Source of the DNA: Runella sp.
GTDB taxonomy: Bacteria > Bacteroidota > Bacteroidia > Cytophagales > Spirosomataceae
Direction: 5' to 3'
Length of the DNA: 64,000 bases
Assembly (NCBI RefSeq): GCF_027484545.1
Contig: NZ_JAIXST010000212.1
Location: 1 to 64,000 of the forward strand
The translations under genes were made by a program, and so were the position numbers. Position 1 is the first letter of the stretch, and every line of letters starts with the position of its first letter. Below the pieces are notes generated by a model that did no database searches, was not told the origin of the DNA, and saw nothing but the letters and a program-made list of their open reading frames with translations. Shown here piece by piece: positions 19,734 through 32,160 of the stretch.

Positions 19734-20105
19734 GGGGCCGCCCTGGTTTTGACAGCGAGTTGAAGCAATACGTATAAGCACGTCGGGACGTGAGCGCGAG
19801 TCCTGTTAAAAACACGCTTAAAACAATAGCTGGCGAATATAGCTACGCTATGGCTGCCTAATCCGGAGTGATTAAGCTTTAGCCATCGTTCCTCCAACCT
19901 CCGCCTTGCTGGTTGGGTCAAGGAGCGTCGAAACGCGAGGCTGGTCGGGTGGATGGTGTTGATACCCGACGAGACACAACACCTAAGGTGGAGGATGAGG
20001 TCTGATTTGAACCTTGCCTACGCTCGAAAATCCAATCAAATCTAAGCGTGTAGAAGGCGTACGGTTTCCTTGTTCTGGACGTGGGTTCGACTCCCACCGG
20101 CTCCA
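19734..20105 (+). ncRNA. ssrA: tmRNA (ssrA)
   Basis: The 5' end GGGGCCG pairs with the 3' CGGCTCC to form the tRNA-like acceptor stem; the T arm is GTGGG-TTCGACT-CCCAC just before it, and the discriminator A is at 20105. The tag frame is at 19829-19861: after the resume codon GCT it reads A-GEYSYAMAA and a stop, very close to known Bacteroidota tags. It rescues stalled ribosomes with SmpB. Its 3' end is the attachment site of the integrative element that begins here; the gene itself is intact. Confidence 0.95.
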
Positions 20106-20108
20106 CAA
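20084..20108. repeat. attL (3' end of ssrA)
   Basis: A 25-bp segment covering the T loop to the 3' end of ssrA. It shares an exact 15-bp core CCACCGGCTCCACAA with attR at 25337 and matches 23 of 25 bases overall. It marks the left junction of the element. Confidence 0.9.
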
Positions 20109-20119
20109 CTTAAACATTT

Positions 20120-20158
20120 AACCTCTTGACTTTCAAATAGTTAAGAGGTTTTGTTTTT
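20120..20158 (+). terminator. Replacement ssrA terminator carried by the element
   Basis: AACCTCTTGAC / GTTAAGAGGTT (10 of 11 paired) followed by TTGTTTTTT. It lies 15 bp past the ssrA 3' end, inside the element. Confidence 0.8.
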
Positions 20159-20162
20159 TCGT

Positions 20163-20215
20163 GGGGACAGTTTGGGGGACACTTTTAGAAAAACGTTTGA
20201 ATTTGGGACACTTTT
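20163..20215. repeat. Left integrase arm-type repeats
   Basis: GGGGACAG and GGGGACAC lie 12 bp apart, followed by a third copy as TTTGGGACACTTTT at 20202. The same sequence occurs as a 12-bp tandem near attR (25195-25223) in the same orientation. Placement close to both att cores suggests tyrosine-integrase arm sites. Confidence 0.6.
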
Positions 20216-20306
20216 GCAGAACGTCTTTTTATTTAGTTGTCAAAACAATTAATGATTGTTTAGTTTTGTTAAGTTCTACCTACTGCAAAACTACCTGCTC
20301 TCAAAA

Positions 20307-20536
20307 GTGAGGTTTTGTGAGGTTTTACCGATAGATACCCTCCCCCCTTATTTATGCTGGTAAATATGCAAGGGGTGGACACGGGTAAACCGATTTGAAA
20401 CCCTAAACTTTTCACTCCCCCCTCCTATACGTTCAATTTAATGGCTCAAAATCTAAGGTTTTCTAAGGTTCTACCCGCCAAAAAGTGAAGTTTTGTGAAG
20501 TTCTTCAACCCAAAATGTAAGGTTTTGTAAGGTTTT
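20307..20536. repeat. Four paired 10-bp iterons
   Basis: Each pair is two abutting 10-mers of consensus (G/C)T(G/A)A(G/A)GTTTT: GTGAGGTTTT twice at 20307, CTAAGGTTTT/CTAAGGTTCT at 20453, GTGAAGTTTT/GTGAAGTTCT at 20485, GTAAGGTTTT twice at 20517. The last three pairs start exactly 32 bp apart. One-turn spacing within pairs and three-turn spacing between pairs is what a protein binding one DNA face would need. Likely Rep or integrase/excisionase sites. Confidence 0.8.
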
Positions 20537-20651
20537 CAGGCTCTTTCCACCTGATAGGATACCCCCCTGTTTTCTAATACTGACAAAACACACGTAGAAG
20601 GGGACAAGGGTCAAAGCATACAAACCGCCTGAACTTTTATATACCCCCCTC
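20307..20651. repeat. Twin C-tract/hairpin modules, origin-like
   Basis: The block after iteron pair 1 (20307-20427) and the block after pair 4 (20517-20651) have the same order of parts: iteron pair, GATA-rich spacer, run of six C, AT-rich stem-loop, AAGGGG...GGAC/ACAAGGGT, then CTAAACTTTT or CTGAACTTTT and a second run of six C. The first stem is CCCCTT.ATTTA / TAAAT..AAGGGG; the second is GTTTT / AAAAC between C and G runs. This looks like a duplicated module, possibly the double- and single-strand origins of a rolling-circle replicon. No gene is seen in this 680-bp stretch. Confidence 0.6.
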
Positions 20652-20787
20652 AATCATTCGGTTTACTTTCGGTTATAAGTTCTGCATTTACCTTGCATTT
20701 ACGTTGATTTCTTAACCTCCTATCTAATTACTTTCAAATCAGATAGGAAATTAAGGTTGTTAGCTGTTCGATCCTGCTGTTTCTCTT

Positions 20788-21990
20788 TCAACCAAACTTT
20801 AAATTTAATTGTACCATTATTTCCCGCTGTTGTGGCGTTGGTTTGAACACCTCCCTAAACTCAAATAATTTGGTTTGGTTTATGCTGTGGAATACCCGCC
20901 TTTTAAAGTTGTTGCGTGGGTTGCTGTCGCTGTTTCTGCACTGTTTTTTGTGGCAGAATACCGCACCTTTGCGACGGTGTTCGATGGGTGTTCCACATAC
21001 CTTGCAATGCCTTTGAAGGGTACTTGGAGGGGTGTTGGCGGGCGTTGGATTGATTGGACGTTTTACCACTTTACTTGAAGTAGTAAAATGTCCTAAGTTT
21101 TTATTTTTGGAGTCGGGTAAAACGTCCGAAGTTTTTAACAGTTCTCCTACCTTATCCGCTATCAATTGGCCTACTGTTTCACGAACACCCAAACCGTATT
21201 TTTTAATTATTTGCTCGAACCGTTCCCGATAATAGTTGCGCTGTTTGCGGTCGGTCAAGTCACGCCAAAAGTTCGGGTTCATACCTTGTTCATATACCCG
21301 TCGTTCAGACCGTGACATTTGCCCCGTGTTCAACTTTTCCCCAATTAGTAAACCTCTATACGTCTCACACAATTTAACGCCCAATAGACGCAATTTTGAC
21401 ACGTCCAACAAATCCGCCAACGTCCGAACCTCCACCTCTGCCAAATGTACCATTGCCATTGTTTTTACTTCAAACCTTAGTACGTTGGTGTTTAAAGTGT
21501 ATTGCCGTTTTTTGTCATAAAGTTTCACAATATAGTTTTGTTTAATCCATTGCATAAGATAGCCCTTACCGCCAAAGGTTCGCATTTCGGGGAGTTTGAA
21601 CCGATAGTTCAGGATATTATCCAAGAACCTGGAGGGGGAGGTATCAAGTAAGATATTTACCCCAAACTCTACATTGTGGAGGCTCACGCGGTCGGGGGAG
21701 GTTTCCAATAGCGTCATAATGTCCCCAATCGTCTGAACTAATCGCTGATAGGTAAATGAGTCGTAATTGTGCGCTCCGTCGTTGGCGAACTTATGCAAAC
21801 TCCCCGTTACCTCCACCATTCCCGACGGGTACAATCCAATTTTCAGGTTTTTAAATTCAGCGGCTCTACTACCGTCCTTTTGTTCGCCTGTGTCGGGGTT
21901 TATCTTGCCCATAAAATCAAAGTTGGGGTTTTGGCGTAACCGTTCGGCAAAACCTTTATCGTTTATTCGTACCTTTACAAAGTCAATCAT
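20788..21990 (-). CDS. Replication initiator resembling phage gene II/X family
   Basis: 400 residues. Residues about 45-115 (EFKNLKIGLYPSGMVEVTGSLHKF ... VSLHNVEFGVNILL) follow the pattern of the replication/nicking proteins of filamentous phages and related plasmids, as do IVKLYDKKRQY and LRFEVKTMAM further on. The C-terminus adds a zinc-binding segment CKVCGTPIEHRRKGAVFCHKKQC. The match is by pattern memory only. It lies next to the iteron and C-tract region, where an origin is expected. Genes II/X initiate rolling-circle replication. Confidence 0.6.
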   Translation of the reverse strand: MIDFVKVRINDKGFAERLRQNPNFDFMGKINPDTGEQKDGSRAAEFKNLKIGLYPSGMVEVTGSLHKFANDGAHNYDSFTYQRLVQTIGDIMTLLETSPDRVSLHNVEFGVNILLDTSPSRFLDNILNYRFKLPEMRTFGGKGYLMQWIKQNYIVKLYDKKRQYTLNTNVLRFEVKTMAMVHLAEVEVRTLADLLDVSKLRLLGVKLCETYRGLLIGEKLNTGQMSRSERRVYEQGMNPNFWRDLTDRKQRNYYRERFEQIIKKYGLGVRETVGQLIADKVGELLKTSDVLPDSKNKNLGHFTTSSKVVKRPINPTPANTPPSTLQRHCKVCGTPIEHRRKGAVFCHKKQCRNSDSNPRNNFKRRVFHSINQTKLFEFREVFKPTPQQREIMVQLNLKFG

Positions 21991-22014
21991 TCGCCTGTCG
22001 GGGTGTGATTGGTC

Positions 22015-22026
22015 AAAAATCGAACA
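22015..22026 (-). promoter_or_regulatory. Shared leader motif, rep copy
   Basis: AAAAATCGAACA on the plus strand (TGTTCGATTTTT as read toward rep), 24 bp before the rep ATG. Identical 12-mers precede two other genes of the element. Confidence 0.6.
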
Positions 22027-22035
22027 TGATTGAAC

Positions 22036-22069
22036 AAAAAGGGCGCGGGGTTATCCCATGCCCTTTTTT
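22036..22069 (-). terminator. Terminator between the 139-aa gene and rep
   Basis: AAAAAGGGC ... GCCCTTTTTT: a 9-bp stem with A and T flanks working on both strands. It would limit read-through from the upstream genes into rep. Confidence 0.75.
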
Positions 22070-22074
22070 ATTCG

Positions 22075-22494
22075 TTAGATGCTCATTTGAGTTTTGACCG
22101 CGTTGATAAACTCCCCCAAAAATCGCTCACGTTCTGACGGGTATAGGTTATACCCACTAAAGAAATAAACCCGCAACTCTCGAAAGTCAGACGAAAACCA
22201 AAACAGTATTAAAGAAAGTTTTTTGTTTCCGCTGCTGAACTCACAATGATTCCCAAAATACCATCTTTCCCGCGTTGGGGAGGGTACTAACCCCGTAAAG
22301 AACAAATACTTTTTGTTTTGGATTCTGCCATGAATGATTTGTTCAGCTCCGTTTCGTCTGATTCTCGGATCGTGGGTTTCTTCCACTTTCAACTCGTTGG
22401 GGAGTTTGGTAAAGGGGACTAAATCGGGCTGTTTCTCATAGTAGTTCGTTTCTACATTCAGCAAAAATCGAACGGTTTTGTAGTCTGCTATCAT
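22075..22494 (-). CDS. Element protein, unknown (139 aa)
   Basis: No family recognised. Soluble, with a basic middle (DPRIRRNGAEQIIHGRI) and an aromatic-rich C-terminal half (YLFFTGLVPSPTRERWYFGN; LSLILFWFSSDFRELRVYFFSGYN). It starts 4 bp after the HTH gene stop, so it is almost certainly co-translated with it. An intrinsic terminator follows before rep. A replication-accessory or maintenance role would suit the position but is only a guess. Confidence 0.7.
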   Translation of the reverse strand: MIADYKTVRFLLNVETNYYEKQPDLVPFTKLPNELKVEETHDPRIRRNGAEQIIHGRIQNKKYLFFTGLVPSPTRERWYFGNHCEFSSGNKKLSLILFWFSSDFRELRVYFFSGYNLYPSERERFLGEFINAVKTQMSI

Positions 22495-22498
22495 GCCC

Positions 22499-22789
22499 CT
22501 ATCGTTTCCCCGCGTTGATTTGTTGAACTGCTGCCTCTACGTCGGTCTGATAGTACCGTACCCGCGTTCCAATACGGTTGGCGGTAATTTTGCCGCCCAT
22601 TGTCCATTCGTGCAACGTAGGCAAGGATACGCCCAAGAAACGCGCGGTTTCCTGTCGGGTCAATAGTTTGGGGGAGTGTGGAGGCCGAACCGCTGCCTCA
22701 ATAATGGGTCGAACCGTACGTTCAACCGCTGCCTCAATTAGCCCTGTCAATTCATCGGGCGTGAAGGTTGTACTAATTACTGTTGTCAT
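22499..22789 (-). CDS. Excisionase-type helix-turn-helix protein
   Basis: 96 residues. An amphipathic N-terminal region (VERTVRPIIEAAV) is followed by a MerR/HTH_17-type DNA-binding domain: LLTRQETARFLGVSLPTLHEWTMGGKITANRIGTRVRYY. Such proteins act as excisionases or element regulators in Bacteroidota mobile elements. First gene of the HTH/139-aa unit. Confidence 0.85.
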   Translation of the reverse strand: MTTVISTTFTPDELTGLIEAAVERTVRPIIEAAVRPPHSPKLLTRQETARFLGVSLPTLHEWTMGGKITANRIGTRVRYYQTDVEAAVQQINAGKR

Positions 22790-22894
22790 CGTTTTATTTT
22801 TTGATTAGGATGCAAAACAGCAAAGAGAAGTAAGGTTAATTTTTCCGACGGATAAAAGATGTATAATTTACGGATAAAAAACAGGCAAATTCAA

Positions 22895-23767
22895 TCAAAT
22901 TTCTGCACTAAAATCTATACCCCGTATATCAATAGCCTCTTTAGGAGGCAATTTTTCTGCCATGCCTCCCGTCTTTCTGTATTTCTGTATTTCGCGTTGT
23001 ATGGTTTTTATGTCGGGTAGGTCTGTAAACGATTCAATTAAAAACTTAGCCAACAATTCGGGCGTATAGTTAAGGGGTATTTCTCCTTTCGTAGTTTGTT
23101 TTTCACTTAGTTTAGCAAACAAATGATACAGCGCACTATTTGAGGCATTCCATTGCAGTTTTGTTCGTTCTACTGTATTCTTTGGGGTTTCTTCTACTAC
23201 CTCCACCGTTGGCGGTTGTTCTATTGTTTCGCCCTTCAATTCTGCCAACTCTTTACGTTTTTCAGCTATCCATTTATCGGCATTTTTTTTAACTCTAAGA
23301 TATGCAATTTTGGGCGGATGTTCATCCGTATAAAAATACATTTTTTCAAAAAAGGAAGTTACTTTATCTAACCATTCATCAAGGTCACCACGATAACTGT
23401 TATAGTGAAAGTCTAAAAAGAGTTCTACTTGGTCAGTCTCATAATATTCAAATAATCTATTAAAAAACGCCTGTAATACTTTTAATTCAGTCATTTCCGC
23501 AAAAGTATGTTTCCAATATCCCTGTTCTGCAAATTTTCCATCTGCTGTTAGATTCTCCTCTGTCTTAAAAAAGTACCGCAAATGAAATGGTTTAATTTCT
23601 TCAACAAAGGGGTCTGTGTCTAAATTGGGGGTTTCTTCATCATAAACCTCATAGGGGTTTTTCCTATATGTATAATACACCTCGTTTTTTATAGGTAAAA
23701 AACCTTTAGGTGCATTGAATACAAATAAACGTAATGGAGGTGTTACCCAAATAATCTGTTTTTTCAT
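22895..23767 (-). CDS. Element protein, possibly RteC-like
   Basis: 290 residues. The N-terminal two thirds are rich in aromatic and charged residues (HLRYFFKTEENL; VLQAFFNRLFEYYETDQVELFLDFHYNS). After a Glu/Pro/Val-rich linker (about 180-205), the C-terminal segment LQWNASNSALYHLFAKLSE ... TIQREIQKYRK recalls the helical C-terminus of RteC, the excision/transfer regulator of Bacteroides conjugative transposons. The resemblance is weak and by eye. The gene has the shared leader motif 4 bp before its ATG. Confidence 0.5.
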   Translation of the reverse strand: MKKQIIWVTPPLRLFVFNAPKGFLPIKNEVYYTYRKNPYEVYDEETPNLDTDPFVEEIKPFHLRYFFKTEENLTADGKFAEQGYWKHTFAEMTELKVLQAFFNRLFEYYETDQVELFLDFHYNSYRGDLDEWLDKVTSFFEKMYFYTDEHPPKIAYLRVKKNADKWIAEKRKELAELKGETIEQPPTVEVVEETPKNTVERTKLQWNASNSALYHLFAKLSEKQTTKGEIPLNYTPELLAKFLIESFTDLPDIKTIQREIQKYRKTGGMAEKLPPKEAIDIRGIDFSAEI

Positions 23768-23771
23768 TTCA

Positions 23772-23783
23772 AAAAATCGAACA
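23772..23783 (-). promoter_or_regulatory. Shared leader motif, 290-aa gene copy
   Basis: AAAAATCGAACA on the plus strand, 4 bp before the start codon at 23767. Confidence 0.6.
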
Positions 23784-23790
23784 AGTAAAA

Positions 23791-23817
23791 CCCCCTACGC
23801 GGTCTGTTGGTAGGGGG
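23791..23817 (-). terminator. Hairpin downstream of the integrase start-side neighbour
   Basis: CCCCCTAC ... GTAGGGGG, a perfect 8-bp stem in the 64-bp gap after the integrase stop. On the minus strand it is followed by GGTTTTAC, so it is a modest terminator for the integrase transcript. Confidence 0.55.
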
Positions 23818-23831
23818 AGGTATGAGTTTAA

Positions 23832-25145
23832 TTAGTTGGCAATACGGAACGGTTCATCCTTTGAGGGGGTGTTTTTCTTCCATAGTTCCCGTAGGTTGTT
23901 GGCATTTTCGCGGGGTGTCACTTTGATATACTTCATAAACGACGATTCGGTACGGTGTCCAGTTATCTTCATAATGGAAGTAGAAGGAAAACCCGCCAAA
24001 TATTGATTTGTGGCAAACGAACGTCGCGCAGTGTGCGTTGTTATCATTTCCCATTTTGGATGGTTTACGGTCTGCCTTATGCCCCCTTTAGTGATGGATT
24101 CGGATACCGTTTCCTCAAACCCCGCCATTTTCCCCAACTCTTTGAGATAGTCGTTCATCTTTTGATTGCTGATAGGTTGGGGGAGGCTGTTAGGGGTTTT
24201 ACCTTCGTATCGTTTCAATATTGCCTCTACCTGCCAATGTATCGGAATTACGACAACCTCCCCCGTCTTTTGGGTTTCCATCTCGATAAACTCCCCGTCA
24301 ATGTTTTCTTTTTTGATACGGGTAAAATCTGAAAACCGTAACCCCGTCCAACAACCCACTAAAAATAAGTCTCTGATTTTTTCGAGTCGCGGGTTCATAT
24401 TCAAATCAAGTTCAAAAAGGGTGTTTAATTCGCGCTGATTCAAATAGATTGCGTCGGAGGACTCTGATACTACCTTAAACTTTTTTGTGCTGAAATTGGG
24501 CATTAAACCGCGTTCCCGTGCCTCTAAGAAAAACGTTTTGAGCGTTCGAATGTGTTTCCCGATTGTATTGGTTGCAAAGTTCTGTTTTACAAGAAACTGT
24601 TGAAACTGTGTATAGAAATAGTAGTCAATCTGGGCGAAACTAAATTCTCTGTTTTTGTAGTTCTTATCCTTAAACTCTTTCAATACCCGCAACGATTGGC
24701 GGTAAACCCTCAATGTCGTTTTTGTGACGGGTTTCGCGGTTTTGTCGTTCAGTTTGGTTTCGTACTCTTTTAGAAAACCTTCAATGAATCCAAACAAATC
24801 CAATGGTTTGACTTCTTCCTTTTTCGGGGTTTTGTTGAGGCTCTGATTCAATAAGTCGCGGTAAGTCTCCAACGTTGGCGGCTGTTGGTCGTTATCGTTC
24901 ATATATTGACGTAGTATATTTTCCGCTACTGTCTCAATGTTGGAAAGACGGGTATTAAATTCGGGATAGGTCGGGTTCTTCTTAGTTTGTTTGGCTCGTT
25001 GGGTTTTAGAGTCCCAAAATAACGGGTCAATGGTTTCTCCTGTTGGATACTTGGTAAGACGTACACCATTGTAACTAACAAACAACAAAATAGGGGTAGG
25101 GCTGTCGGCCTCCTTATCACGGAGGTAAAAGTTTATCTTTGCCAT
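23832..25145 (-). CDS. int: Tyrosine recombinase (integrase)
   Basis: 437 residues, the usual size for Bacteroidota element integrases. An arm-binding N-terminus is followed by a SAM-like core-binding domain (about 105-215) and the catalytic domain. Active-site residues are all visible: R in CWTGLRFSD, K in QKTGEVV, H-x-x-R in THTARRSF, H in KITGHRT, and the nucleophile Y in FMKYIKV. It lies next to attR with 12-bp tandem arm repeats immediately upstream, the arrangement of an element that integrates into a tRNA-like 3' end. Confidence 0.95.
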   Translation of the reverse strand: MAKINFYLRDKEADSPTPILLFVSYNGVRLTKYPTGETIDPLFWDSKTQRAKQTKKNPTYPEFNTRLSNIETVAENILRQYMNDNDQQPPTLETYRDLLNQSLNKTPKKEEVKPLDLFGFIEGFLKEYETKLNDKTAKPVTKTTLRVYRQSLRVLKEFKDKNYKNREFSFAQIDYYFYTQFQQFLVKQNFATNTIGKHIRTLKTFFLEARERGLMPNFSTKKFKVVSESSDAIYLNQRELNTLFELDLNMNPRLEKIRDLFLVGCWTGLRFSDFTRIKKENIDGEFIEMETQKTGEVVVIPIHWQVEAILKRYEGKTPNSLPQPISNQKMNDYLKELGKMAGFEETVSESITKGGIRQTVNHPKWEMITTHTARRSFATNQYLAGFPSTSIMKITGHRTESSFMKYIKVTPRENANNLRELWKKNTPSKDEPFRIAN

Positions 25146-25158
25146 ATCTGAAACGGTT

Positions 25159-25170
25159 AAAAATCGAACA
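25159..25170 (-). promoter_or_regulatory. Shared leader motif, integrase copy
   Basis: AAAAATCGAACA on the plus strand, 13 bp before the integrase ATG. Confidence 0.6.
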
Positions 25171-25194
25171 GAACAAAGATAGTAAACTTTATTT

Positions 25195-25223
25195 TTTGGG
25201 GGACACTTTGGGGGACACTTTTT
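25195..25223. repeat. Right integrase arm-type repeats
   Basis: TTTGGGGGACAC occurs twice in direct tandem with a 12-bp period, between the integrase start and attR. It matches the left-end copies at 20163-20215. The remaining 100 bp to attR are AT-rich with no gene. Confidence 0.65.
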
Positions 25224-25326
25224 GTTAATTTAATCTTATTTCTCTTTATCCCTCTTTACTATTGACTTTTATAAATAATTGATTATCAGTGTATTTTAGT
25301 AGCATTGGGTAAGGTACAATTTTATA

Positions 25327-25351
25327 GGTTCGAGTACCACCGGCTCCACAA
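25327..25351. repeat. attR
   Basis: Second copy of the ssrA 3'-end segment, with an exact 15-bp core and two mismatches to attL in the T-loop side. That side would come from attP, so the free element should itself mimic the ssrA end. Confidence 0.85.
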
Positions 25352-25387
25352 AACCCGCTAAATCTTATGATTTAGCGGGTTTTTCTA
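25352..25387 (+). terminator. Displaced original ssrA terminator
   Basis: AACCCGCTAAATC / GATTTAGCGGGTT is a perfect 13-bp stem followed by TTTTCT, starting directly after the attR core. Joined to attB, it would lie directly behind the ssrA 3' end. Confidence 0.85.
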
Positions 25388-25444: not shown

Positions 25445-25717
25445 ATGGAAGCCACGTACTACTTAGACGAAAGCGAACTTGATTATAAGTTTTTCAAATC
25501 CCTCAAATCAACCTTCAAGGGGAAGAGGCTTACGCTCAACTTAAAAGCTGAATCGCCGGATAAAATGACGGTATCGGCATTTGAGCAGAAGATTCAGCAG
25601 CGTCAAAATAGCCCTGTATCGTATCTTTTTGAGGGAGATAGTTTTGACGATATAACAAGCCAACTTCTTAAAGGAGAGTCTGTTGATATAGAAAAGTATA
25701 AGAAGGTTAAGCCATGA
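25445..25717 (+). CDS. Antitoxin of a YoeB-type toxin-antitoxin pair
   Basis: 90 residues. It overlaps the toxin start by 4 bp (ATGA), the usual coupling of antitoxin-toxin operons. The sequence does not look like YefM/Phd: an N-terminal YYLDESELDYKFFKSLKSTFKGKRLTLNL is followed by a C-terminal acidic tail suitable for wrapping a toxin. The antitoxin role is inferred from position and size. Confidence 0.7.
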   Translation: MEATYYLDESELDYKFFKSLKSTFKGKRLTLNLKAESPDKMTVSAFEQKIQQRQNSPVSYLFEGDSFDDITSQLLKGESVDIEKYKKVKP

Positions 25718-25977
25718 GGAGTGTCGAATTCAAACAGGATTCATTTGAAGAACTGGCTCAGTGGGTAACCCAAGACCGTAAAACATATCAACGTATTGTG
25801 AGACTTATCAGTGAGGTAAGGCGTGCTCCCTTTGAGGGTATCGGAAAACCAGAACCTTTACGCGGCAATTTAAGCGGTTGTTGGTCTCGTAGGATTGATG
25901 ATGGCAATCGCATGGTGTACGAAGTAACCGCTGATATAATTGTGATTCTGTCTCTGATGGGGCATTACGATGATTAG
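25714..25977 (+). CDS. YoeB/Txe family mRNA interferase toxin
   Basis: 87 residues, normal length. VEFKQDSFEELAQW at the N-terminus, PFEGIGKPEPLRGNLSGCWSRRIDDGNRMVYEV in the middle (read in parts), and ILSLMGHYDD at the end are YoeB hallmarks: the catalytic E, R and the terminal H-Y are present. YoeB cleaves mRNA on the ribosome. The toxin looks intact. Confidence 0.9.
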   Translation: MRSVEFKQDSFEELAQWVTQDRKTYQRIVRLISEVRRAPFEGIGKPEPLRGNLSGCWSRRIDDGNRMVYEVTADIIVILSLMGHYDD

Positions 25978-26005
25978 CTATTAACACTTCTCGAAGTTCT
26001 CCGCC

Positions 26006-26069
26006 GTTGTTGGTCTTATGACCGACAATCTTTGCTTCAAAAGGGTTGTTGGTGAAAATACCGACAATA
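26006..26069. repeat. Two GTTGTTGGT-type mini-hairpins
   Basis: GTTGTTGGT-CTTATG-ACCGACAA at 26006 and GTTGTTGGT-GAAAAT-ACCGACAA at 26045, 39 bp apart. The arms are the same and only the 6-base loops differ. They lie between the toxin gene and the type IIG RM gene, overlapping the likely RM promoter region. Confidence 0.6.
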
Positions 26070-26104
26070 GCGTAACTTTTTAAATTCCTGATTTGCCCAA
26101 TCGT

Positions 26105-26112
26105 TAAATTTG
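26105..26112 (+). promoter_or_regulatory. -7 promoter element for the type IIG RM gene
   Basis: TAAATTTG (TAnnTTTG), 31 bp before the ATG at 26144. Another near match, TAACTTTT at 26073 with TTG 21 bp upstream, is a possible alternative. Both argue for the ATG at 26144 over the track's TTG at 26120. Confidence 0.4.
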
Positions 26113-26143
26113 CCTTACATTGGCTTATCTTAACGATTTTAAT

Positions 26144-29100
26144 ATGCTTCTTAAATCCCTCACACCCACTGAATCACTCGAAAAAGTTTATCGCTTACAA
26201 TCTGGCAACCGCGAACAGATTGACCGATTCAAAGCCAACTTCACAACCCTGCTGAATCGCATCAACGAACAGGAAAGCGAAGAGAACGTAAAAGGGCATT
26301 TAATGGACTTTCTCAAAGAGGTCTATTACAAAGACGCGTATTTGATAGCCACCAAGGGAAAAACCGATTTTGTGATTCATACCGGCAAAGAAGCCAACGC
26401 CCCCGCCGGGGTACTCTTTGAGGTCAAACGTCCGACCAATAAAGGAGAAATGATTACGCGCGAAAACCTGAACACCAAAGCCATGCAGGAGTTAATCCTG
26501 TATTATTTTCGCGAACGTACCAAAGACAAAAACAGCGATTTACGCTATTGTGTCATTACCAACGTGTATGAATGGTTCATTTTTGACGCGGCTCTGTTCG
26601 AGCGGGTATTTTACAAAAACGCCCATTTAATTAAAGAATATAGGGCTTGGGCGTCGGGGCAAAAAGTGAGTACCAACAATGAACTGTTTTACAACGAAAT
26701 TGCCAAACCGTTTTTGGCCGAGCTGAAGGAGGAAATACCGTTCACCTACTTTGACATTCGCAATTTTAAAAAAATCGTTGCCGATAGCAATACAGCCAAT
26801 GATAAGGCGCTCTTACCCCTTTACAAAATCGTGTCGCCTACGCATCTGCTGAAGCTGCCAACGACGACGGACAGTAATAAACTCAACCCTAAATTTTATT
26901 CCGAACTGCTGCACCTGATTGGCTTGGAGGAGGTAAAAGACGGCGGAAAAAAAGTGATTCGACGCAAAGAAGCCGATAAACGGGACGAGGGGTCATTGCT
27001 CGAAAATACCATTATCCAACTTGATACAGCGGGCAAACTCTACCACCTCCCCGACCGGGCGCAATACGGAGCCACTACGGATGAACAACTGTTCAGCGTT
27101 GCCTTAGAACTTTGTATTACGTGGGTCAATCGAATCTTGTTTCTTAAACTGTTGGAATCGCAGTTGGTCAGTTACCACAACCAAGACAAAACGTATTCTT
27201 TCCTGAACCGCGAAACGATTGCCGATTTTGACGAACTCTTTAAACTGTTTTTTCAGGTCTTAGCCAAACGCCCCTCCGAACGCCGTTCTTCTATCCAAAC
27301 CAAGTTTGGCCGTATTCCTTACCTGAACAGCTCTTTGTTTGAAATTAGCGAATTGGAAGACGCCACCATCAATATCAATAGCCTCGACGATAGCCAAACC
27401 TTACCGCTGTTGAGTAAAAGCGTACTGAACGACAACCCCGCCTATAAAAACGCCAAACAAGTGCCAACGCTCTCTTACCTGTTTGCGTTTTTGGATGCTT
27501 ATGATTTTGCCTCGGAAAGCCGTGAGACGATTCAGGAAAAAAACAGGTCGTTGATTAATGCCTCCGTATTGGGGCTGATTTTTGAGAAAATCAACGGCTA
27601 CAAAGACGGTTCTTTTTATACGCCCGGATTCATCACCGAATACATGTGCCGCGAAACCATTCGTAAGGCGGTGGTTCAGAAGTTCAACGATGCCAAAGGC
27701 TGGAACTGTGCCGATTTTGCCGCGTTGGAAGACAAAGACCTTGATAGAAATGAAGCCAACGCCCTGATCAATGAACTTGCCCTCTGTGATCCTGCCGTGG
27801 GGTCTGGCCACTTTCTGGTATCGGGACTCAACGAACTCATCGCTATCAAGTCGGAACTGGGTATTTTGCAGGATGAAACAGGAAAACGGCTGAAAGGCTA
27901 TACCGTTAGCGTTCTGAATGATGAGTTGATTGTTCTGGATGATGACGAAACGCCGTTTCAATATTTTCTGCAAGCCACTGGAAAACCAACGCCCGAACGC
28001 CAACGCATCCAAAAGACTTTGTTCCACGAAAAACAAACGCTGATTGAAAACTGTCTTTTCGGAGTGGACATTAACCCCAACTCCGTAAAAATTTGCCGTT
28101 TGCGCCTGTGGATTGAGTTATTGAAAAATGCCTATTATACCGAAGAATCGGGTTTTACGGAACTGGAAACCCTCCCCAACATTGACATCAATATCAAGCA
28201 GGGAAACAGCCTTTTGAGCAAATTTAGCCTTACAGAAGACCTGACTGACGTTTTTCAAAAGCAGAAATTTAGTTTTAAAACTTACAAGGATGCTGTTACT
28301 GCGTACAAAAATGTGCGCGATAAAGACGCAAAAAGTGAATTATTAAGGTTTATAGGAGAAATAAAAGAGCAGTTTCGCGATAAAATTATTAATACTGACC
28401 ATCGTCGAAAAAAACTCTCTGTACTACGTGGACAACGTGATGTTTTGGATATTGATACTGACCTATTTGGTACTAAAATTCGCGGTACTAAAATGGTCAA
28501 AGACACTAAATTGATTGAGGATGAAAAGATAAAGTTAGATAAACAAATTGAACAAGCCGAATTAGAATGGGCAAATATTGAAAGTAATGCCCTCTATCGG
28601 GGTTCGTTTGAGTGGCGGTTTGAGTTTCCCGAAGTACTGAACGAAAAAGGCGATTTTGTGGGTTTTGACGCGGTTATCGGTAATCCACCTTACATCCGAC
28701 AGGAGGATTTAGGAGAATCAAAAACATTACTGAAAAAAGATTTCCCCAAAACCTACACGGGTACGGCTGACCTTTACGTGATGTTCGTGGAGCATGGTTT
28801 ACGCATTTTACGCCCCAATGGTCAATTCGTGTTCATCATTCCAAACAAATGGATGAGAGCGGGCTACGGTGAAAACCTCCGTAAATGGCTGAAAACGTTG
28901 GCGATTGAACAAATTGCCGACTTTGGTGATTTGCCCGTTTTTGACGAGGCTACCACCTACCCAAGCATTTTGAGTATTCGTAACGCGCCTGCTTCCAATC
29001 ATTTTCAAGCGGCTCAGATAGATACGTTAAAATATGATGTTGGGTTATCTGATTATGTCCAAGCGAACCGTTTCGAGGTAAATTTTGAAAGTTTAAAAGA

Positions 29101-29959
29101 CGATAGTTGGCAACTCACTAACGGAGCAGTACAGCAACTAATGACCAAATTACGGACAACGGGAACCCCACTTAATGATTATGTAAAGGGTCAAATATAT
29201 TACGGCATAAAGACAGGGCTCAATGAAGCCTTCGTAATTGATGCCGCTACCAAAGATAAATTGATTACGGAAGACGCGCGAAGTGCTGAAGTTATCAAGC
29301 CGTTTTTGGGAGGTAGAGATGTAAAACGTTACCACCCTCCCACGGTTGATAAATTTTTGATATTATTCCGTTCCGGCAGCACAAAAGCAATGTTTGGTAA
29401 GGTGGATGAAGAACCGGCATGGAAACGGCTCCAAAACAATTACCCAGCTATTTGCCAACATCTTGAACCTTTTAAAGACAAAGCAAAAATACGAACAGAT
29501 AAGGGTGAATATTGGTGGGAATTAAGGGCTTGTGCTTACTATGACGAGTTTGAGAAGCCTAAAATTGTCTACCCTAATATTTGTCGACAACCTGAATTTA
29601 TCATTGATAAAGCCTCTTTTTACACAAATCAAAAGTGTTTTATAATTGCCATGGATGATAAATTTCTATTGGCAGTACTCAATAGTAAAGTTACCTACTT
29701 CCTTTTTCAACAGCTATTGCCTACGCTTAGAGGCGGGTTTTATGAACCAAGCAGTATTTATTTTAAAACTTTCCCTATCCCTCACGCATCACCTGAAAAA
29801 AAAGAGTCAATTATCGAATTAGTCAACCAAATAATCACGAACAAATCCAACAATGGCGCGGCCCCCGCCGACACCACCGCCTTAGAATCAGAAATAGACC
29901 GTTTGGTGTATGCGCTGTATGGCTTAACGGAGGAGGAAATCGCGATAGTAGAGGGGTAA
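26144..29959 (+). CDS. Type IIG restriction-modification enzyme (Eco57I-like)
   Basis: 1271 residues from the ATG at 26144. The N-terminal nuclease domain has the PD-(D/E)XK signature (KTDFVIHTG ... FEVKRP, about 75-100). The methyltransferase core follows: motif I DPAVGSGHFLVSG (about 548-560) and motif IV GNPPYIRQ (about 845), the N6-adenine type. A TaqI/Eco57I-like target-recognition region occupies the last 300 residues (YYGIKTGLNEAFVID; PFLGGRDVKRY). A single chain methylates and cuts, so no separate R or S gene is needed. The target sequence is unknown. It looks intact. Confidence 0.9.
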   Translation: MLLKSLTPTESLEKVYRLQSGNREQIDRFKANFTTLLNRINEQESEENVKGHLMDFLKEVYYKDAYLIATKGKTDFVIHTGKEANAPAGVLFEVKRPTNKGEMITRENLNTKAMQELILYYFRERTKDKNSDLRYCVITNVYEWFIFDAALFERVFYKNAHLIKEYRAWASGQKVSTNNELFYNEIAKPFLAELKEEIPFTYFDIRNFKKIVADSNTANDKALLPLYKIVSPTHLLKLPTTTDSNKLNPKFYSELLHLIGLEEVKDGGKKVIRRKEADKRDEGSLLENTIIQLDTAGKLYHLPDRAQYGATTDEQLFSVALELCITWVNRILFLKLLESQLVSYHNQDKTYSFLNRETIADFDELFKLFFQVLAKRPSERRSSIQTKFGRIPYLNSSLFEISELEDATININSLDDSQTLPLLSKSVLNDNPAYKNAKQVPTLSYLFAFLDAYDFASESRETIQEKNRSLINASVLGLIFEKINGYKDGSFYTPGFITEYMCRETIRKAVVQKFNDAKGWNCADFAALEDKDLDRNEANALINELALCDPAVGSGHFLVSGLNELIAIKSELGILQDETGKRLKGYTVSVLNDELIVLDDDETPFQYFLQATGKPTPERQRIQKTLFHEKQTLIENCLFGVDINPNSVKICRLRLWIELLKNAYYTEESGFTELETLPNIDINIKQGNSLLSKFSLTEDLTDVFQKQKFSFKTYKDAVTAYKNVRDKDAKSELLRFIGEIKEQFRDKIINTDHRRKKLSVLRGQRDVLDIDTDLFGTKIRGTKMVKDTKLIEDEKIKLDKQIEQAELEWANIESNALYRGSFEWRFEFPEVLNEKGDFVGFDAVIGNPPYIRQEDLGESKTLLKKDFPKTYTGTADLYVMFVEHGLRILRPNGQFVFIIPNKWMRAGYGENLRKWLKTLAIEQIADFGDLPVFDEATTYPSILSIRNAPASNHFQAAQIDTLKYDVGLSDYVQANRFEVNFESLKDDSWQLTNGAVQQLMTKLRTTGTPLNDYVKGQIYYGIKTGLNEAFVIDAATKDKLITEDARSAEVIKPFLGGRDVKRYHPPTVDKFLILFRSGSTKAMFGKVDEEPAWKRLQNNYPAICQHLEPFKDKAKIRTDKGEYWWELRACAYYDEFEKPKIVYPNICRQPEFIIDKASFYTNQKCFIIAMDDKFLLAVLNSKVTYFLFQQLLPTLRGGFYEPSSIYFKTFPIPHASPEKKESIIELVNQIITNKSNNGAAPADTTALESEIDRLVYALYGLTEEEIAIVEG
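29880..29956. repeat. Direct repeat, left copy (3' end of the RM gene)
   Basis: The last codons of the RM gene. They include CTGTATGGCTTAACGGAGGA and further bases, 35 bp in all (29915-29949), that recur exactly at 30771-30805. Homology extends to about 77 bp with few differences. Confidence 0.85.
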
Positions 29960-30050
29960 AAACGCAGTCAGGGTCTAAAAGCCTTGGTAACAACACCCTA
30001 TCGATTTTGAGAAAGTTGCACTTTAGTGAAACATTTTATAAATTTACAAC

Positions 30051-30398
30051 GTGGAAGGAAATCAGAAAAAACGAACAATTCTTTTCTACAAAGACTACTT
30101 TCAGGAATTCTTTGTAAAACAGCGTGACAAGGTGAAAGACAAAATTGTTTGGACACTTCAACTTATTGAAGAGCTTCCGAAAATTCCAGAAACCTATTTG
30201 AAGCATTTAGAAAATACAGATGGGCTATACGAGTTAAGGATTCAACAAGGCAGTGATATTTTTCGCATTTTCTGTTTTTTTGACCAAGGACAATTAGTTG
30301 TATTAGCCAACGGTTTTCAAAAGAAAACACAAAAGACCCCTAAAAGTGAAATTGAGAAAGCATTAAAAATCAAACAAGAATATGAAAGCGAAAAATAG
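30051..30398 (+). CDS. higB: HigB-like toxin (Gp49/RelE superfamily)
   Basis: 115 residues, GTG start. The pattern is that of Gp49-like HigB toxins: LPKIPETYLKHLENTDGLYELRIQ, then DIFRIFCFFDQGQLVVLANGFQKKTQKTP. These cleave ribosome-associated mRNA. Toxin-first order with the HTH antitoxin second is the normal higBA order. Overlaps higA by 17 bp. Confidence 0.88.
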   Translation: MEGNQKKRTILFYKDYFQEFFVKQRDKVKDKIVWTLQLIEELPKIPETYLKHLENTDGLYELRIQQGSDIFRIFCFFDQGQLVVLANGFQKKTQKTPKSEIEKALKIKQEYESEK

Positions 30399-30684
30399 TG
30401 TCTTGACCCTTGATCAATTCAAGGATAAAAACTACGGAATACCTGGAACCGCAAAACGAGATGCCCTTGAAGCTGGCTATGAAAACTTTAAAATAGGTGC
30501 TTTGATTCACGAAGCAAGGCTGGTGAAAGGTCTAACGCAAGAAGAACTTGCTGAAAAAGTAGGCATGACAAAATCTTATATTTCTAAGATTGAAAACAAC
30601 ATTAAGGAAGTCAGACTTTCAACGCTTCAAAAAATTGTAGAACTTGGTTTAGGTGGACATTTACAACTAAACATAAAATTGTAA
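30382..30684 (+). CDS. higA: HigA-like XRE-family antitoxin
   Basis: 100 residues. The helix-turn-helix is IGALIHEARLVKGLTQEELAEKVGMTKSYISKIENN (read in parts), in the C-terminal half. An N-terminal segment (VLTLDQFKDKNYGIPGTAKRD) would bind the toxin. It probably represses its own operon. Confidence 0.9.
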   Translation: MKAKNSVLTLDQFKDKNYGIPGTAKRDALEAGYENFKIGALIHEARLVKGLTQEELAEKVGMTKSYISKIENNIKEVRLSTLQKIVELGLGGHLQLNIKL

Positions 30685-30689
30685 AGATA

Positions 30690-30818
30690 AAAATCCTAAC
30701 CGCCAAAGCTGCCGATAGTAACGCCGATACATCAGCCTTAGAAGCCGAAATAGACCGCTTGGAGTATGCCCTGTATGGCTTAACGGAGGAGGAAATCGCG
30801 ATAGTGGAGGGGAAATAA
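30690..30818 (+). pseudogene. Fragment: duplicated 3' end of a type IIG RM gene
   Basis: In frame it reads ...SALEAEIDRLEYALYGLTEEEIAIVEGK-stop, nearly identical to the last 40 residues of the RM enzyme upstream (SEIDRLVYALYGLTEEEIAIVEG). It has no start. The 35-bp exact match at 30771-30805 and the neighbouring homology make a direct repeat bracketing higBA. It may be the remnant of a second RM gene or the footprint of the event that placed higBA here. Confidence 0.85.
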
Positions 30819-30826
30819 GTCAGCTT

Positions 30827-31091
30827 TTAGGCTGCGTTTTGATTTTTCCATTGTATTTCAACGCCTAACGGTTGCATAAGTACGGCCAATTCGCCCGCAT
30901 CGGCGGTTCGACAAGTATTGACTCCTGCGGTATTCGTATTGTTCAATGACAAAGGCATCGGGTTCCGGACGGTCCGCCGCGCGGTCGTTACGGTGTATTT
31001 GTAGCGTGCCGTTGATTTGCTCAATCAATTCAATTATCGAACCGCCGTTGCGGGCGCATAATACGACTGCTACGGTTGGTTGTCGTTCCAT
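30827..31091 (-). pseudogene. Small protein, probably frameshifted at a GC-rich mini-hairpin
   Basis: One frame gives MERQPTVAVVLCARNGG... to about residue 35; another continues sensibly as LNNTNTAGVNTCRTADAGELAVLMQPLGVEIQW to the stop at 30827. The switch lies at or just after the hairpin at 30968-30986. Neither single frame looks complete. No family recognised. It follows the 31108 gene on the same strand. Confidence 0.45.
30968..30986. repeat. GACGGTCCGCCG mini-hairpin, copy 1
   Basis: GACGGTCCGCCGCGCGGTC, nearly the same as the copy at 31802-31825. GACCG occurs at both ends on the minus strand, as if a short palindrome had been inserted with a 5-bp duplication. Confidence 0.55.
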
Positions 31092-31107
31092 TACCTATGC
31101 CGCGTTT

Positions 31108-31347
31108 TCAAATGTCAAATGAATTTTGAGTTTTGGGCGGTTCGCCGCTGCGAGCGTCCAATAGTTGGCCTAACTTTTGGAGGTTTTCGTTTCTTATGTC
31201 CACGTATTGCCTTACGTGGGCATCATTGATGCCGTTGGCGCGGTATTGCTCAATTATTTCGGTGTCCATTTCAATCAACTGAAATAGTTTGGCTACGGCG
31301 GCGGCGCGTTGTTCATTGTTTAAAATCAATTCATTAATTTCTTCCAT
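31108..31347 (-). CDS. Small helical protein, unknown
   Basis: 79 residues from the ATG at 31347, which lies 4 bp after the stop of the nucleotidyltransferase-like gene; that spacing decides the start. MEEINELILNNEQRAAAVAKLFQLIEM is strongly helical and the rest is polar (VRQYVDIRNENLQKLGQLLDA). No family recognised. Probably the partner of the upstream gene. Confidence 0.6.
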   Translation of the reverse strand: MEEINELILNNEQRAAAVAKLFQLIEMDTEIIEQYRANGINDAHVRQYVDIRNENLQKLGQLLDARSGEPPKTQNSFDI

Positions 31348-31351
31348 GGGT

Positions 31352-31825
31352 CTAAAAATTGAGTTGAATAATTCCTTTTGGGCGTTTTGTAACATATTCG
31401 GTCGTAAAATCAAACAACCAACGTTTACACTCTATTTGGTAAATGTTGTGCAAAGGATGATTGGATGGATACACCTTTACAAAACAGCCATCAGTTCCTA
31501 ACTTGCGTGAGTATCTGCGTAATCGAAATTTCTCTATTTCTTGCTCATGCTGTTGGTAACTTTCAAAGTCAATAAAAGTTAAAAAGTCAATGTCGTTAGG
31601 GTTAAATTTTCGGCTTATAAAACTTCCATCTATCCATTGTACAAAATCGGCCCCAATCACTTGTTTTAAGGAGTCCATATAGGATAAATAGTTGTTAAAC
31701 CATCTTTGACGTTTACTCATTTCAGAAAACTCTTTTACAAACACCTGTTCAAACGTTTCAAAGTCTGTCAGTATCACTTCATAGGGCGTAAGGTATCCGT
31801 GTTGACGGTCCGCCGCAGCGGTCAA
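31352..31825 (-). CDS. Nucleotidyltransferase-like (MNT-type) protein, N-terminus rearranged
   Basis: About 157 residues. The nucleotidyltransferase motif is DGSFISRKFNPNDIDFLTFID (read in parts): G-S followed by D-x-D. HGYLTPYEVI near the N-terminus is a conserved feature as I remember the family. The ORF can start only from a TTG at 31825. If 13 bp are removed, an ATG at 31838 reads MTFDRQHGYLTPYE, so I infer an insertion at the N-terminus. Whether the protein is still made is unclear. Confidence 0.65.
   Translation of the reverse strand: MTAAADRQHGYLTPYEVILTDFETFEQVFVKEFSEMSKRQRWFNNYLSYMDSLKQVIGADFVQWIDGSFISRKFNPNDIDFLTFIDFESYQQHEQEIEKFRLRRYSRKLGTDGCFVKVYPSNHPLHNIYQIECKRWLFDFTTEYVTKRPKGIIQLNF
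31802..31825. repeat. GACGGTCCGCCG mini-hairpin, copy 2
   Basis: TTGAC..CCGC / GCGG..TCAA palindrome at the N-terminus of the nucleotidyltransferase-like gene. On the minus strand GACCG is repeated 13 bp apart across it. Confidence 0.55.
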
Positions 31826-31902
31826 ATGTCATACTGTATTTAATTCAAATTTACGGTATTTACTTTTAATTGGCAATACTCTTCCAAAGTCTGCTTTCAC
31901 AG

Positions 31903-32160
31903 TTATCCCTCCGCCAACTCAAGCACTTCATCCCCCAAATTCACATTCGGTTTAAAGATTCGGGTGAGGCGTTGAAAGGCGTCCTGCTTGGCCTTGAGAT
32001 CGTTTCCGTTAAAGATTTTAAAGGTATCCCAGTCCACAAAAGCGGTATTGGTAGGCTCGTATAATAGACGAAATTGGCGGGCATCCAATTTCGGCACGTA
32101 AATGACCGTTAGAGTAATGCTCGGTTGGTTTCGCGGGTAAAATGTCCAGGTTACTTTCAT
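31903..32160 (-). CDS. Small protein, unknown
   Basis: 85 residues, ATG start. MKVTWTFYPRNQPSITLTVIYVP then KLDARQFRLLYEP and a C-terminal helix. It has a compact beta-alpha look but no motif I recognise. It lies between the accessory stretch and the SMP-30 gene; the 150 bp upstream hold nothing identifiable. Confidence 0.5.
   Translation of the reverse strand: MKVTWTFYPRNQPSITLTVIYVPKLDARQFRLLYEPTNTAFVDWDTFKIFNGNDLKAKQDAFQRLTRIFKPNVNLGDEVLELAEG

Follow-up and report, generated by a model that had tools for sequence, protein, structure and literature searches.

A compact 5.2-kb integrative element at the 3' end of ssrA in Runella, carrying a putative gene II-related initiator

What lies between the two copies of the ssrA 3' end in a Runella strain, and how might it move? 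The locus belongs to a 64,000-nucleotide stretch (contig NZ_JAIXST010000212.1 of assembly GCF_027484545.1, referred to here as the window), in which the repeated end of the tmRNA gene ssrA flanks a mobile element of 5243 bp. A reading made previously from the nucleotide sequence only (the sequence-only reading) proposed an integrating rolling-circle replicon or satellite. Comparison with related genomes shows site-specific integration between duplicated ssrA 3' ends, so the integrating part of that proposal is supported by empty sites, while rolling-circle replication is what we infer from the proteins encoded. The segment is probably an integrating mobile element that replicates by the rolling-circle mechanism; less certainly, it may be transferred with help from another element. 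The features of the integration site are as follows.

19734 to 20106, plus strand: ssrA (tmRNA), the integration target, complete, with its 3' end forming attL (ARAGORN)
20084 to 20108, plus strand: attL, 25 bp, with a 15-bp perfect core at 20094 to 20108 (repeat and core searches)
20120 to 20150, plus strand: element-borne intrinsic terminator directly 3' of ssrA, substituting for the native one
20163 to 20186, plus strand: candidate arm-type integrase site GGGGACAGTTTGGGGGACACTTTT (repeats D4/D11)
25199 to 25222, plus strand: second candidate arm-type site GGGGGACACTTTGGGGGACACTTTT, internal to attR (repeat D4, 87%)
25327 to 25351, plus strand: attR, 25 bp, with a 15-bp perfect core at 25337 to 25351 (repeat and core searches)
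25350 to 25383, plus strand: native ssrA terminator with a 15-bp stem, pushed outside attR by the insertion

The direct repeat GGTTCGAcTcCCACCGGCTCCACAA is identical at 23 of 25 positions (92%) between attL and attR, its final 15 bp being perfect. The sequence-only reading had correctly recognised these 15 bp at the ssrA end, but the repeat begins about 10 bp earlier than it supposed. The 14-bp core CCACCGGCTCCACA occurs at attL and attR only across the whole 7.1-Mb genome, and an 18-mer of the attachment (att) site, with up to 3 mismatches allowed, matches twice in the window against 0.09 matches expected. Despite the insertion the 3' end of ssrA is intact at attL, and the hairpin that now follows it is unrelated to the native ssrA terminator. 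Arm-like sites GGGGGACACTTTT match between both element ends inside the boundaries, with an additional candidate copy, GGGACACTTTT, at 20205; the motif GGGGACAGTTTGGGGGACACTTTT is found at an equivalent position in genome G007 and in the element of Runella aurantiaca which, with Runella sp. CRIBMP, is the closest named relative of the source genome.

The ssrA gene of other Runella genomes has the 3' end ...GGCTCCACAA, immediately behind which lies a hairpin terminator, the counterpart of the window hairpin that lies outside attR. A search for ssrA without the element, suggested by the sequence-only reading as a way of refuting integration, thus supports it instead, because an unoccupied site should show just one att copy with the ssrA terminator behind it, as these genomes do. 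In one relative, G004, ssrA and its terminator are succeeded by the toxin-antitoxin-like gene pair (82% identity over about 600 bp) that the window has 3' of attR. In G004 this pair (L131:4209-5310) forms a 0.7-kb islet without an integrase, closed off by another, degraded copy of the ssrA 3' end. The same kind of element terminator as in the window is also located 3' of ssrA in G003 and G007, and an integrase fragment lies close to ssrA in G012; ssrA is therefore a repeated target in Runella. One family member (L076:7312-11742) occupies ssrA in the opposite orientation with its integrase adjoining the gene, which suggests an independent choice of this target.

The element itself contains five genes, all directed leftward, and one non-coding repeat region.

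23832 to 25145, minus strand: tyrosine integrase, 437 amino acids, with Arm-DNA-bind_5, SAM_5 and catalytic domains (family searches)
22895 to 23767, minus strand: orf290, a variable regulator slot between the integrase and helix-turn-helix (HTH) genes
22499 to 22789, minus strand: HTH_17/excisionase-family protein, 96 amino acids (Pfam 1.9e-9, TIGR01764 1.1e-8, PHROG excisionase 8.7e-8)
22075 to 22494, minus strand: orf139, with counterparts that precede rep in other Spirosomaceae elements
20788 to 21990, minus strand: rep, 400 amino acids, putative gene II/Phage_CRI-related initiator with a Cys-rich C-terminal tail
20301 to 20540, plus strand: iteron-like repeats AGGTTTTGTGAGGTTTTACC, partly at 32-bp spacing, a candidate replication origin or Rep-binding region

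The integrase gene is complete and adjoins attR, as the sequence-only reading had reported, and the remainder of its inventory was recovered as well: an HTH protein of 96 amino acids, probably an excisionase (Xis) or regulator, two proteins without a family, and the Rep-like protein. Neither orf290 nor orf139 matched a known family in family searches; the C-terminal third of orf290 is conserved in some relatives, and an AlphaFold model of orf139 from one sequence (pLDDT 42) was too poor to use. RteC was considered for orf290: one of 18 proteins from this slot matches RteC (7e-7), but the orf290 group shows weak similarity to L028 when compared, and the identity is not claimed. Family searches of the element proteins found no capsid, Zot, packaging, interference, relaxase or coupling gene, in agreement with the earlier statement on capsid, Zot, relaxase and coupling genes. 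The type IV secretion system, coupling protein and relaxase of an integrative and conjugative element (ICE) were not found, nor were the Zot/pI assembly ATPase and coat genes of a filamentous phage. Since this 5.2-kb copy also has no recognised cargo, it is a convenient minimal test case.

The assignment of Rep follows a chain of profiles. A Rep profile reaches the Bacteroidota homologues L091 to L093, two of which, L091 (26.7 bits) and L093 (57.8 bits), pass the Pfam cut-off of 21.7 bits for Phage_CRI (PF05144). When 24 Rep sequences were aligned with L091 to L093 by hhalign, a probability of 99% (E 6e-18) was obtained over 206 columns from the N-terminus. Conserved features of Rep include GSLHK(Y/F), NLEFGVN, K-x-Y-D-K and LRFE, and K156, Y158, K160 and E174 are invariant in the 24 sequences. 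From these relationships we infer a gene II-type rolling-circle initiator; the gene II/X-like character proposed by the sequence-only reading thus holds through the chain from L091 and L093 to PF05144, but not in direct family searches.

The motif AGGTTTT..AGGTT is repeated in the window only within the non-coding stretch between rep and attL, and it recurs at the att end in the elements of R. aurantiaca and CRIBMP. In the former, two large genes separate the candidate origin from rep, yet the origin motif stays at the att end. The motif was rejected as a family-wide origin, as repeated copies are seen only in the Runella elements closest to this one, and in some members the end of rep lies within 20-150 bp of att.

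Several results weigh against an element of this kind. Rep has no direct match in Pfam or NCBIfam, and a PDB search was likewise empty; annotation pipelines would therefore miss the family. PF05144 matches directly neither Rep nor its 19 aligned relatives. Comparison by hhalign with the replication proteins of IKe and VGJphi (M13-type gpII) gave no signal, although the VGJphi translation looked odd and the comparison with it should count for little. The AlphaFold model of Rep (3 sequences, pLDDT 40) provided no usable structure, and a PDB fold search with it returned meaningless weak matches only. The iterons, as noted, are repeated only in the closest Runella elements. Finally, profile searches of the host genome found neither a TraG-type VirB4 (PF19044) nor a PF03432 relaxase, so that no resident helper is evident.

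Homologues of Rep are encountered in 17 of 59 closer relatives and, by profile, in 29 of 396 sampled Bacteroidota genomes, and the combination is thus not the uncommon one that the sequence-only reading took it for. A same-strand tyrosine integrase lies upstream of rep at 34 of the 40 Rep loci examined, mostly with an HTH protein in between, and relatives with the same gene order, which that reading had asked for, recur in quantity (integrase, regulator, HTH, Rep). At 16 loci, this one included, a copy of a tRNA or tmRNA 3' end is located on the far side, 4.7-10.9 kb off; the target genes are those for tRNA-Arg, Thr, Met, Glu, Leu and Cys, and ssrA. Integrase and Rep distances are correlated (Mantel r 0.42, 0/2000 permutations). 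The CRIBMP element shares 75% identity with this one in Rep and 47% in the integrase; judging by such sequence comparisons, modules are exchanged between family members despite the correlation. No match to this Rep was found in IMG/VR, and scans of viral contigs gave one weak relative, L102. None was found among the plasmids searched; one Parabacteroides plasmid is matched by L093, a divergent homologue. The 28-kb record MT835707.1, deposited as a bacteriophage, contains a Rep of this family together with integrase and HTH genes and may instead be an integrated element. Another related element (L036:5098-6951) possesses tandem, near-equal open reading frames of 100 amino acids belonging to no known family. 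In the same genome as the window, contig C91 (L023:1-3480) carries a rep interrupted by a stop codon, together with an element-type terminator adjoining tRNA-Asp, and contig C138 (L024:7166-7621) a fragment that shares 88% identity with the origin region.

Longer family members often carry anti-phage defence genes, an apparent link to defence. In relatives, the genes that adjoin the core encode, among others, a TIR-type effector, restriction enzymes of types I, IIG and III, and the PADLOC candidates PDC-S49 and PDC-M63A. By coordinates, the defence genes of L074, L082 and L040 fall within the att sites; L081 and L086 have no att assignment. In the window, a run of defence-type genes is located beyond attR (25445-32160): a YoeB-like toxin and its partner, a type IIG restriction enzyme of 1279 amino acids, a toxin-antitoxin-like pair (30051-30684) and a PDC-M63A/DUF6932 gene (31352-31825). 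The R. aurantiaca element contains a 92-amino-acid remnant of a type IIG restriction gene (L143:6018-6296, 92% DNA identity), the window copy of which is outside attR.

How would such an element work? Going by its protein families, the integrase would recombine attP and the 3' end of ssrA; the HTH protein, which resembles excisionases, would tilt recombination towards excision and so release a circle of about 5.2 kb. The gene II-related Rep would then nick an origin in the iteron region beside attL, and rolling-circle replication of the circle would prevent its loss while excised. Transfer between cells, the least certain step, would be aided by another element; the likeliest helper would be a conjugative system able to take over the strand nicked by Rep. 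Conjugative help is the first choice because streptococcal integrative and mobilisable elements (IMEs) of the same gene order are thought to use rolling-circle replication (RCR)-type proteins as relaxases (PMC5357655, PMC5704250).

The alternative that survives best, possible although we do not favour it, shifts the weight from replication to mobilisation. Rep would be chiefly a relaxase nicking an origin of transfer (oriT) in the iteron region, replication would be secondary, and Bacteroidota ICEs would mobilise what would strictly be a non-canonical IME. Several Runella genomes possess TraG-type conjugative genes, and the compact order of integrase, excisionase and RCR initiator is matched in streptococcal IMEs (PMC5357655); against this, the element has no coupling-protein gene, and the host lacks the VirB4-type gene and PF03432 relaxase mentioned above. 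Of the described relaxase superfamilies, PF01719, PF02486 and PF02407 were covered by the Pfam search, with no match to Rep; PHA00330 lies outside the libraries searched. Still tentatively, one gene II-related protein might serve both as replicator and as mobilisation relaxase in tiny elements that, Bacteroidota-wide, spread interchangeable defence genes between tRNA and tmRNA sites.

That the island is an old insertion, now decayed and immobile, is unlikely. The broken copies on C91 and C138 show decay elsewhere in this genome, but here all five genes are open, both att and the arm-like sites are present, and the layout is that of intact relatives. Packaging by a helper phage, filamentous (given the gene II-like Rep) or other, after replication upon infection would make the element a phage satellite, for which its size, close to filamentous phage genomes, and the defence genes near relatives, reminiscent of phage satellites, might also speak. 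No Zot above the curated cut-off was found in 36 genomes (this host and 35 relatives), so a filamentous helper is unlikely; with the near absence of Rep from the viral collections scanned and of capsid, packaging or interference genes from the element, a satellite appears improbable. An ordinary chromosomal region with a chance repeat, suggested by nothing but the shortness of the 15-bp core, is hardly credible in view of the empty sites, unique core, adjoining integrase, displaced terminator and the 15 similar cases at 3' ends of tRNA/tmRNA genes.

The integrating rolling-circle element favoured here may finally be set beside known systems. Its Rep is tied to the filamentous phages (Inoviridae) by the profile chain to gene II, but unlike them it has no coat, pI/Zot or assembly genes and possesses its own tyrosine integrase for integration. 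In layout it can be likened to the actinobacterial AICEs such as pSAM2, in which int, xis and a rolling-circle rep form one element integrated at a tRNA gene. The AICEs carry a TraB/FtsK-like transfer protein. Bacteroides NBU1/NBU2 and Tn4555 are integrated mobilisable elements of the same phylum with an integrase and small regulators, but have canonical MobP relaxases (PMC5704250); none was found here, and Rep is of another family. No description of this Rep family, of a Bacteroidota host or of a link to defence genes was found in the open-access literature searched. For Bacteroidota, the suggestion that the combination may be undescribed is plausible; streptococcal IMEs, however, are already known to have this layout, with Rep families other than the present one (PMC5357655; the compact layout also in PMC5704250). 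The RCR-initiator relaxases of these tyrosine-integrase IMEs belong to the Rel_PHA00330, Rel_PF01719 and MobT classes (PMC5357655). Besides phylum and Rep family, the present element differs, as far as PMC5357655 describes those IMEs, in having the extra regulator slot (orf290) and no coupling gene, where 83 of 118 carry TcpA. It resembles them in the compact order of integrase, excisionase and RCR initiator, in targeting the 3' ends of conserved genes, those for tRNA among them, and in having, as is often the case there, no further mobility gene (PMC5357655). The family is apparently widespread in Bacteroidota. Should it be mobile, defence genes would have in it a minimal vehicle, and the range of compact RCR-Rep integrative elements would reach beyond streptococci into a further phylum. 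The element is best read as the Bacteroidota counterpart of the compact streptococcal IMEs with RCR-type relaxases.
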